From positions 1-64,000 of the forward strand of contig MKGP02000083.1 of NCBI GenBank assembly GCA_001913845.2: DNA of 64,000 nucleotides, given 5' to 3'. Both the position numbers and the translations under genes were made by a program. The notes beneath the pieces are model-generated. The model did no database searches. It was not told where the DNA came from and was given only the letters and a program-made list of their open reading frames with translations. This document shows, in pieces, positions 9,412-42,119 of this stretch. The stretch comes from Limnothrix sp. CACIAM 69d. GTDB lineage: Bacteria > Cyanobacteriota > Cyanobacteriia > CACIAM-69d. Position 1 is the stretch's first letter. Every line of letters begins with the position of its first letter.

Positions 9412-10845
9412 ATGCTTTTTCCCAATCCTGTGCCGAGTCCCGCCGGGTGGCAATTGTTTCGCTGGCTGTTTGATCCGCTGACTTTTTTGGATCAATGCAC
9501 CGATCGATGGGGATCCACGTTTTCCCTGGGGCTGGTCACCGGGTTGCGCATGACCCTCGTGGCGGATCCAGAGGCGATCGCGGATGTGTTTGCCCTGGAT
9601 CCTAACCACATCGAAAGTGGTTCCATGAATTATCTGCTGGAGCCGTTGGTGGGTCTCAATTCCCTGTTGTTGTTGGATGGCAGTCCCCACCGTCGTCACC
9701 GCAAGTTGCTGTTGCCACCGTTCCATGGCGAACGGATGACAGCCTATGGGCGGCTGATTTGTGACTTGACCCGCCAACAGGCGACGGATTGGGGATCGCA
9801 AAAGGTGATTGCCGGGCGCAAGGTAACCCAAGTCATTACGCTGAAAACCATCCTGAAAGCGGTGTTTGGGCTAGTGGATGGCGATCGCTATGGCCAAATT
9901 CAAGTTTTGGCTACCAAAATTCTGGACTTGTTGGGATCGCCCCTCACCTCTAGCCTGTTGTTTTTGCCGTCCCTGCAACGGGATGGGGGGCCCTGGAGTC
10001 CTTGGGGCTATTTTCTGAAGTTGCGGCATCAGCTTGATGTCTTGCTCTATGGGGAAATTGCCGATCGCCGCGCTGAACAGAGCCATGCTCAACAGGATGC
10101 TGCTCAACCGGGCCAATCCCCCAATCGGGGGCCGAGCGATCGCACGGATATTTTGAGTTTGTTGTTGGCAGCCCGGGATGAGGCGGGCCAGCCCATGAGC
10201 GATGAGGAAATTCGCGACGAATTAATGACCCTGTTGCTGGCGGGCCATGAAACCACCGCCACCTCATTGGCTTGGGCCCTGTGGTGGGTGACGCAGTTTC
10301 CGGCCATGGGCGATCGAATTCGGGCGGAAATTGCCGAACTGGGGCCGGATCCGGAACCGATGGCGATCGCCAAACTGCCCTACCTGAACGCCTTTTGCCA
10401 GGAAACCTTACGCATTTATCCCGTGGCCCTGATTGGCAGTCCGCGCCGCCTGCTAAAGCCCACGACGATCGGGGGACATGACTATCCCGCTGGGGCCATT
10501 GTCTCGCCCAACATTTACAGCGCTCACCGCCGGCCGGATTTGTATCCCAACCCAACCCAGTTCCAACCCGAACGATTTTTGGAGCGATCGTTCAGCAATT
10601 CGGAATTTTTGACCTTTGGCGGCGGCAACCGAAGCTGCATTGGCATGGCCTTTGCCCAGTTTGAAATGAAGCTGGTGTTGGCAACGCTGCTGATGGATTG
10701 GTCGGTGGCCTATGCCGGGGTGGTTCCTCCCCGCCCGGCCCGCCGAGGGGTGACCGTGGGACCCAATGGGCCGCTGCGATTGCGGATGACCCGGCGCGAT
10801 CGGGTGGCTCCTGCCCCAGCGCCCACGCCCCAAACGGTGGCCTAG
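9412..10845 (+). CDS. Cytochrome P450 (CYP110-like)
   Basis: A full-length P450 of 477 residues. Haem ligand Cys409 sits in FGGGNRSCIG, the ExxR pair is Glu331/Arg334 (ETLRIYP), and the I-helix oxygen-binding motif is AGHETTAT. The opening MLFPNPVPSP and overall pattern suggest cyanobacterial CYP110, whose tested members hydroxylate fatty acids, alkanes or terpenes. No N-terminal anchor is evident and no ferredoxin partner is nearby. The TAG stop is the first three bases of MITE copy B. Its closeness to the alkane genes is suggestive only. Confidence 0.92.
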   Translation: MLFPNPVPSPAGWQLFRWLFDPLTFLDQCTDRWGSTFSLGLVTGLRMTLVADPEAIADVFALDPNHIESGSMNYLLEPLVGLNSLLLLDGSPHRRHRKLLLPPFHGERMTAYGRLICDLTRQQATDWGSQKVIAGRKVTQVITLKTILKAVFGLVDGDRYGQIQVLATKILDLLGSPLTSSLLFLPSLQRDGGPWSPWGYFLKLRHQLDVLLYGEIADRRAEQSHAQQDAAQPGQSPNRGPSDRTDILSLLLAARDEAGQPMSDEEIRDELMTLLLAGHETTATSLAWALWWVTQFPAMGDRIRAEIAELGPDPEPMAIAKLPYLNAFCQETLRIYPVALIGSPRRLLKPTTIGGHDYPAGAIVSPNIYSAHRRPDLYPNPTQFQPERFLERSFSNSEFLTFGGGNRSCIGMAFAQFEMKLVLATLLMDWSVAYAGVVPPRPARRGVTVGPNGPLRLRMTRRDRVAPAPAPTPQTVA

Positions 10846-10988
10846 GGTCTGTCGTCAAATCGCCTGAAACCCTGATTCCACCGTTGACAAATCGTGGGGG
10901 ACCAGGGGCTTGAGCATCTTGTTACGACGACTGGGACATGAACAATCAATCGTTTCCGCCTGATCCTAGGAAATGACGACAGGCCCTA
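10843..10988. repeat. MITE-like element, copy B
   Basis: A 146-bp element with TA at each edge and imperfect terminal repeats TAGGGTCTGTCGTCA / TGACGACAGGCCCTA. Its reverse complement matches copy E (41974-42119) at 140 of 146 positions with no gaps. Its first three bases are the stop codon of the P450. It contains no reading frame able to code for a transposase. Confidence 0.9.
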
Positions 10989-15733: not shown

Positions 15734-15887
15734 TAGGGCCTGTCGTCAAATCGCCCAAAATCTTGATTCCACCGTTGGCAGATCGTGGGGGACAAGGGGC
15801 TTAAGCCCCTTGTTACGACGACTGGGACATGGCAAATCAACCGTTTAACCGCTTTTGCTGGATTCTAGGAAGTGACGACAAACCCTA
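15734..15887. repeat. MITE-like element, copy C
   Basis: A 154-bp copy with TA at both ends (TAGGGCCTGTCGTCA at left, TGACGACAAACCCTA at right). It is in the same orientation as copy B and clearly related along its length. It carries the perfect 20-bp palindrome CAAGGGGCTTAAGCCCCTTG at 15793-15812. It lies between serA and the next spacer. Confidence 0.88.
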
Positions 15888-23223: not shown

Positions 23224-23298
23224 CGGGCCGACGGCCGGTTGCCAAATCGCCCGAAACTCGGATTCCACTGCTAGCGAGTCGTGAGGGGCAAGGGGCTG
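23224..23298. repeat. Truncated MITE-like copy (host of copy D)
   Basis: About 75 bp that follow the left half of the family in diverged form (CCAAATCGCCCGAAACTCGG, then a GATTCCACTG-like stretch and GTGAGGGGCAAGGGGCTGA). It stops in the middle of the core, where copy D begins. The right half is missing beyond copy D. Confidence 0.55.
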
Positions 23299-23448
23299 AG
23301 GGCCTGTCGTCAAATCGCCTGAAACCCTAGATCTGCCGTTAGCGGATCGTGGGGGACAAGGGGCTTAAGCTCCTTGCCTAGGTCAGTTAGGGTCTGGAAT
23401 GGAAGATCAACGGTTTTTGTTTGATCCCAGTCCGTGACGACAGCCCCT
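23299..23448. repeat. MITE-like element, copy D
   Basis: About 150 bp beginning AGGGCCTGTCGTCAAATCGC and ending GTGACGACAGCCCCT. The core palindrome is present with one change (CAAGGGGCTTAAGCTCCTTG, 23357-23376). Its left half matches copy A best. It abuts the truncated copy on its left and lies between the convergent ends of the YyaL gene and the next minus-strand gene. Confidence 0.82.
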
Positions 23449-23476
23449 GGGGGCCATGCTTGCGATCGAACCAGCC

Positions 23477-37957: not shown

Positions 37958-38071
37958 GCTGTTGTTTAACCTTTTGGGTTGACTTCTGAGACAACCAATC
38001 TCATTAGCTCCGAGGATTTCTGGGGAGTCCCTTGGATAATTGCTAAGCACCGAAAAGCACCGCATTGCCAT

Positions 38072-38143
38072 GGGGCAAGGGGCTTAAGCCCCTTGTCTTC
38101 ACCGAATCGCCACGGGGCAAGGGGCTTAAGCCCCTTGTCTTCA
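38072..38143. repeat. Tandem pair of perfect 20-bp palindromes
   Basis: Two identical 30-bp units (38072-38101 and 38114-38143) with a 42-bp period. Each contains CAAGGGGCTTAAGCCCCTTG (38076-38095 and 38118-38137), the same palindrome as in the core of MITE copy C. No terminal repeats of either MITE family are nearby. They lie in the 266-bp gap between the convergent glycosyltransferase and argS genes; nothing else was recognised there. Confidence 0.85.
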
Positions 38144-40727: not shown

Positions 40728-41169
40728 GGGTTGACCTCTCGGCAAATCGGCAAGGATGGACAAGGTGCGCGCCTTAGGCAGACATCGGCGAAACGGCTGT
40801 AATGGCAGGGAACGATCGCGCTAGGATGCTTATCGGTGTCCCCCAGAGTTCCAACCCATGCGAGTTTTACGCTTGTTCCAGTTGTTGTTGGCCCTGGCTG
40901 GCTCGATCGTGACCGGTCGTCAATGGGGTTTGGGTCAAGGTCAGCCCAGGGAGCACCGCAGGGAACCACAGGGGCGATCGGCGGCGACCGCGATGGGCAA
41001 CCGGGTGAGTCGTTCTGGGTCAATACAACTCGATCTCCAGTTTGCCCGGATCGCTTGCGGGACAGTATTCAAACCGATATCTCAATTCGTAACCGTCCGT
41101 TGGCTCCAAGTCCAGGGGGGGCTTGAGTCAGGAAGGGCTGAACGCTTTCAGTGGCGGTGCTTGCAGGGA

Positions 41170-41976
41170 ATGGGGCGAAGTTTGGCGATCGGGCTGATGG
41201 GATTGGTGATTTGTGCCAGTTGGGCAATTGTGCCAATGCCGAGTTTGGCCGATGAGTTGCCCCTCGAAGCCCGCGTTCAGGCCGCGCGATCGCTCTTTGA
41301 CCAAGCTTTTGAGGCCACCAATGGTGGGCAATTTGCCCAGGCCGAGCGTTATTGGACACAAATTTTAGAACTTTTTCCCGACAATGCGGAAATTTGGAGC
41401 AACCGGGGCAATGCCCGCGCCAGCCAAAATCGGCTACAGGAGGCGATCGCGGACTATAACGAAGCGATTAGCCGTGCTCCCAATGCGCCAGATCCCTACC
41501 TGAATCGGGGGGCGGCTCGGGAGAATGCGGGCGATCTGACGGGGGCGATCGCGGACTATGACCATGTGTTGGAATTGGATCCCAATGATGCGGCCGCCTA
41601 CAACAACCGGGGCAATGCGGAGGCGGGCCTTGGCCAATGGGCGATCGCGGTTGAAGACTATGCCCAGGCGGAGCGCTTGGCCCCCGATTTTGCGATCGCC
41701 CGGGTGAACCATGCCCTCGCCCTGTTCCAGGTGGGCGATCGGGCGGAGGCCTTGCGCCTGTTGCGGAATTTGGTGCGGAAATATCCCACCTTTGCCGATG
41801 CGCGGGCGGCCCTGACGGCGGCCCTGTGGGATGCGGGCGATCGGGGCGAGGCCGAGAGCCAGTGGGTCTCGGTGGTGGGTCTCGATCGGCGCTACAAGGA
41901 TTTGGAGTGGGTGGCAAAGGTGCGCCGTTGGCCGCCCGCCATGGTGGCCGCCCTAGAAAAATTCCTCAAGCTTTAG
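41170..41976 (+). CDS. Exported TPR-repeat protein
   Basis: A 268-residue protein with a signal peptide (MGRSLAIGLMGLVICASWAI onward, cleavage near SLADE) and at least four tetratricopeptide repeats (AEIWSNRGNARASQNRLQEA, PDPYLNRGAARENAGDLTGA, AAAYNNRGNAEAGLGQWAIA and a fourth). The frame is open to 40858, but that extra part is low in recognisable structure, and the signal peptide points to 41170. The TAG stop (41974-41976) is the first three bases of MITE copy E. Likely a scaffold in the lumen or periplasm; partner unknown. Confidence 0.82.
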   Translation: MGRSLAIGLMGLVICASWAIVPMPSLADELPLEARVQAARSLFDQAFEATNGGQFAQAERYWTQILELFPDNAEIWSNRGNARASQNRLQEAIADYNEAISRAPNAPDPYLNRGAARENAGDLTGAIADYDHVLELDPNDAAAYNNRGNAEAGLGQWAIAVEDYAQAERLAPDFAIARVNHALALFQVGDRAEALRLLRNLVRKYPTFADARAALTAALWDAGDRGEAESQWVSVVGLDRRYKDLEWVAKVRRWPPAMVAALEKFLKL

Positions 41977-42119
41977 GGCCTGTCGTCATTTTCTAGGATC
42001 AGGCGGAAACGATTGATTTTTCATGTCCCAGTCGTCGTAACAAGATGCTCAAGCCCCTTGTCCCCCACGATTTGCCAACGGTGGAATCAAGGTTTCAGGC
42101 GATTTGACGACAGGCCCTA
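41974..42119. repeat. MITE-like element, copy E
   Basis: A 146-bp copy with TA at both edges and ends TAGGGCCTGTCGTCA / TGACGACAGGCCCTA, which are perfect inverted repeats over 15 bp. It is inverted relative to copy B and matches it at 140 of 146 positions. It supplies the TAG stop of the TPR gene to its left. Confidence 0.92.

Follow-up and report, generated by a model that had tools for sequence, protein, structure and literature searches.

A gene for a TPR-repeat protein in Limnothrix sp. CACIAM 69d ends in a stop codon made of the first bases of a repetitive element, and this locus raises the question of whether such elements are directed to stop codons or come to lie there for other reasons. 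The gene is on the forward strand of contig MKGP02000083.1, of which we analyzed positions 1 to 64,000 (hereafter, the window). Its open reading frame extends from the first ATG at 40858 to 41976 and gives TPR Pfam matches, while our home-made gene finder begins the gene at 41170. The closest named relative of the protein in GTDB contigs comes from an Oscillatoriales MAG and shares 80% identity, in keeping with a cyanobacterial host. As a sequence-only reading of the window had recognized, the TAG stop (41974-41976, forward strand) is identical to bases 1-3 of the element, E (41974-42119, forward strand).

Element E is a MITE-like repeat of 146 bp with perfect 15-bp inverted-repeat ends (TAGGGCCTGTCGTCA) and a TA duplication, and the home-made gene finder calls no gene within it. 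It is thus short and non-coding with terminal inverted repeats, and an Rfam search of the window returned no match. Copy B (146 bp; 10843-10988, reverse strand) matches E at 95% on the opposite strand, in line with the opposite orientations originally described, and its opening bases form the stop, TAG 10843-10845, of a cytochrome P450 gene (9412-10845, forward strand; PF00067, E 1.1e-65). Copy C (154 bp; 15734-15887, reverse strand), which lies 62 nt past a gene 3′ end, and the internally shortened copy A (102 bp; 996-1097) are both off stop codons. The ends of copy D (152 bp; 23298-23449, reverse strand) have decayed to GAGG..CCTG, and this copy is inserted next to a GGGGCT half-palindrome. 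The initial count of two stop-codon insertions (E and B) among four intact-ended copies is therefore correct; its probability is 0.025 against all non-coding TA sites and 0.16 against target-matched sites, so that the window taken alone provides weak evidence. Ends reading GAGGG for TAGGG recur, often inside GGGGCT palindromes (window 23298; G000 C6 14239, C24 109388, C35 32038, C36 4832, C69 44770, and C85), and copies bearing them may by now be immobile.

The repeats belong to a large family. A BLAST search of this genome (4.57 Mb in 100 contigs) with E gave at least 57 matches, with 40 of 364 first-look candidates scored, and the 15-bp end occurs 208 times across the whole genome at up to two mismatches, compared to 10 times for a reversed-pattern control. 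Copy counts and gene calls were made on a 2.01-Mb sample of the genome, which holds 78 interspersed two-ended copies, chiefly in size classes of ~146 and 191-194 bp. Copies are plentiful in two congeners, G001 and G002; elsewhere in the taxonomic family they are sparse, and outside it there are essentially none. The sequence-only reading had reckoned with random insertion at TA sites between genes. TA is indeed used and duplicated, but the target is Y-TA-R, not plain TA: given as left base, TA, and right base, the sites are TTAA (30), CTAG (15), CTAA (8), and TTAG (6), and most copies outside these four targets have mutated ends. A palindromic flank preference, RGGCYTARGCCY, is common to stop and non-stop insertions.

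Approximately 28 of the 78 copies have a GGGGCTTAAGCCCC palindrome as their insertion site (for example, G000 C46 63200-63390). The same motif forms the center of some element copies (window 15734-15887) and stands alone in tandem at window 38058-38141. Back-to-back pairs of copies have one TA in common at G000 C27 (64298-64489 and 64488-64633) and C72 (59895-60041 and 60040-60185).

Empty sites reveal what the insertions did to the genes. In congener G002, whose TPR protein is 98% identical and whose P450 is 95% identical, the E and B sites are both empty. The TPR gene ends as CTCAAGCTT TAA CCTCTAG in G002 and as CTCAAGCTT [TAGGG...CCCTA] AACTCTAG here, and the P450 gene ends as GTGGCC TAG GGCTGATC in G002 and as GTGGCC [TAGGG...CCCTA] GGGCTGATC here. 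TA is duplicated at both sites and each protein ends at the same residue as in G002. The stop at E, which consists of the duplicated TA and the first G of the element, changed from an ancestral TAA to TAG upon insertion with the protein unaltered, whereas copy B struck a native TAG and remade it as TAG. The TPR orthologs of G001 and G004 have the same final residue, followed by TAG. The element therefore truncated nothing, one stop having been exchanged for another. The earlier statement that E supplies the stop holds insofar as the TAG is the element's own; what it replaced, at the same place, was an existing stop. In G001 C42 (locus L218), the TAG stop of the P450 ortholog opens an element-like end, TAGGGGATGTCGTCATTTCG, although the other end is not recognized; the corresponding site in G002, a closer relative, is empty, which suggests that G001 received an insertion of its own at this end of the P450 gene.

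The window's two stop-codon insertions are no fluke, since an exact stop is supplied by 19 of the 78 two-ended copies in the 2.0 Mb of this genome, by 8 of 34 copies in one congener, and by 2 of 11 in a second. Sites and genes were called on the same 2.01 Mb, the latter with a home-made Markov gene finder; the affected genes are real, as Pfam domains scored above cut-off in all nine of the proteins with element-supplied stops that were scanned. Taking the element out restores TAA or TAG in every case (19/19). Two further genes end inside an element, 71 and 33 nt in (G000 C25 60186-60331 and C3 30348-30493, respectively), and there the element may add C-terminal residues.

Chance expectations depend strongly on the target, as non-coding YTAR sites are concentrated on stop codons: 20.6% of CTAG, 11.6% of CTAA/TTAG, and 6.9% of TTAA sites already lie on one. 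We set aside the palindrome copies and stratified the null by target 4-mer and half-site score; a position-weight null was dropped because the GGGGCTTAAGCCCC palindromes dominated it and rendered its expectations meaningless. Exact-stop insertions number 16 of 50, compared to 6.2 expected from 4-mer strata and 9.4 from strata of 4-mer and half-site score (P 0.014). With the null taken from this genome throughout, G001 yields 8 of 22 (3.6 expected, P 0.015), G002 2 of 8 (1.4 expected), and the three genomes pooled 26 of 80 (14.3 expected, P about 0.0008). The direction is kept when only copies with intact TA ends (13/37 versus 7.2 expected) or only the 144-148-bp class (11/36 versus 6.7) are counted. 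The excess of stop hits over intergenic sites in general, first suspected from the window, is real but modest, at less than twofold.

Could this excess mean that something guides the transposition machinery to stop codons or the 3′ ends of transcripts, whether by terminating ribosomes, terminating polymerase, or the supercoiling between convergent genes? The pooled excess over target-matched intergenic sites speaks for this, as does an insertion density that drops with distance from 3′ ends. Relative to available targets, however, insertions are as enriched 1-30 nt past the stop (2.58) as at the stop itself (2.57), and the ratio falls to 1.74 at 31-60 nt, 1.02 at 61-100 nt, and lower beyond. 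Of the 30 insertions lying no more than 60 nt from a gene 3′ end, 16 hit the exact stop, compared to 16.3 expected among equally suitable sites. The count of element ends at stop codons that had been proposed as a check, run here on 2.0 Mb, thus finds an excess against intergenic sites and none against matched neighbors. In addition, elements at stops lie both ways (10:9) with no orientation bias, and selection alone predicts the drop with distance. Directed insertion at stop codons or transcript ends, one of two explanations offered from the window, is accordingly unsupported, and we consider it unlikely, although the data are compatible with a general bias of insertion itself toward 3′ ends. 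Somewhat less probable again is a combined scheme in which terminating ribosomes or polymerase steer insertion to 3′ ends and a stop-preserving safe landing evolved in the form of the Y-TA-R target and G-first ends.

A different possibility is that the element persists at gene ends by being useful, for instance as a 3′ mRNA hairpin that stabilizes or ends the transcript. As RNA, E folds end to end into a hairpin (-53.9 kcal/mol, z -3.95), and copies are overrepresented close to 3′ ends and in convergent regions. Yet the inverted-repeat ends of any MITE will fold, no terminator-like site was found in the direction of the TPR gene, the nearest relative has nothing inserted at the E and B sites, and copies show no orientation preference; this account is therefore improbable, more so than either form of directed insertion. 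That the element truncated a longer gene by giving it a new, earlier stop is suggested by the stop codon consisting of element bases, but is almost certainly wrong, as TAA or TAG remains at that codon in 19 of 19 cases once the element is taken out, orthologs finish at the same residue, and the G002 empty sites refute it outright for E and B.

Taken together, these results make it very likely that target sequence and purifying selection account for the stop hits, with no recognition of stop codons. E belongs to a DNA transposon family that is non-coding and present in high copy number, a MITE whose target is the TA of a palindromic Y-TA-R and whose insertion duplicates that TA. A YTAR whose TA opens a codon is always a stop, either TAA or TAG, because R is A or G. 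Since G is the first element base after the duplicated TA, the stop is always rebuilt, as TAG at the same codon and in either orientation, leaving the protein untouched. Because a YTAR in this frame is always a stop and TAG is rebuilt in place, stop codons are both a suitable and a neutral target. Insertions elsewhere were presumably removed by selection, producing the excess at stops; neither stop codons nor terminators nor translation would need to be recognized. The other original explanation, selection for harmless sites, fits the data: all 19 stop insertions restore a native stop, the E and B empty sites share the same protein ends, and called genes contain no copies where target composition predicts 24. 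Off-stop insertions favor convergent regions (9 versus 3.4 expected), and together with the matched-site, orientation, and in-gene counts this is what target-driven insertion and later selection should leave behind. Counting against the account, short divergent regions are not depleted (5 versus 1.8 expected) and long intergenic regions are, so promoter avoidance alone does not shape the distribution, although genes missed by the gene finder in long gaps may skew that null. The home-made gene calls and the failure to find an autonomous partner in this genome (see below) also weigh against it.

TA duplication and the empty E and B sites in G002 show that the family is mobile, and insertion at TA with a preference for CTAG-like sites is as expected of a MITE moved by IS630/Tc1 elements. 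Because TA duplication, Y-TA-R targets, and inverted-repeat ends all match such elements, the mobilizer is most likely an IS630/Tc1-type transposase acting in trans. The sampled sequence of this genome contains no full-length partner between paired ends; the genome's DDE_3 transposases lack the element's ends, and the search turned up no autonomous element sharing them. G003 C158 (locus L228, 898-1973) carries a decayed 1076-bp IS630-family element around a DDE_3 transposase. Its ends, TAAGGGCTGTCATCG and TAAGGCGTGCCATCA, resemble those of the MITE family, with such pairs arising by chance at a rate of ~1 per 2 Mb. The resemblance is suggestive but short of proof, and the L228 element is possibly kin of the autonomous partner.

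Our findings have practical consequences. Where repeats that target TA seem to prefer stops, the comparison should be with target-matched sites and not with all intergenic TA sites, and in annotation, stops lying in such repeats should be read as native gene ends rather than truncations. They also provide a rule that can be checked elsewhere: a G-first element that inserts at YTAR always remakes any stop it strikes.

Among known systems, ISY100 of Synechocystis, an IS630/Tc1-family element, likewise inserts at TA and duplicates it (PMC2170065), and the title of Tenzen and Ohtsubo 1991, cited therein, reports an IS630 preference for the TA in CTAG, which is among the main targets here. The present element differs in carrying no transposase, in also using TTAA and CTAA/TTAG, and in its longer palindromic preference. 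Cyanobacterial MITEs such as Nezha are similarly short, non-coding inverted-repeat elements, a likeness of description; the review that lists them does not mention stop codons (PMC10969869). Within the open-licence literature, we found nothing on stop-codon targeting by MITEs or insertion sequences beyond a study of Streptococcus pneumoniae, in which the stop codons of 36 genes are encoded by BOX repeats, with no strong sign that the genes were truncated (Croucher et al. 2011, PMC3049150). BOX, RUP, and SPRITE repeats are enriched between convergent genes, which was interpreted as tolerance (PMC3049150), and for RUP, mobilization by IS630-Spn1 and insertion at TA have been proposed. The family described here resembles these short mobile repeats in its convergent-gene enrichment and, like BOX, supplies stops. 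It differs from them in sequence and host, and here each element end opens with TAG and stops are remade at the native codon every time. Repeats that supply stops without truncation have thus already been published. The present work adds another family with the same behavior, now quantified against matched targets, and a simple rule that explains the rebuilding of the stop.
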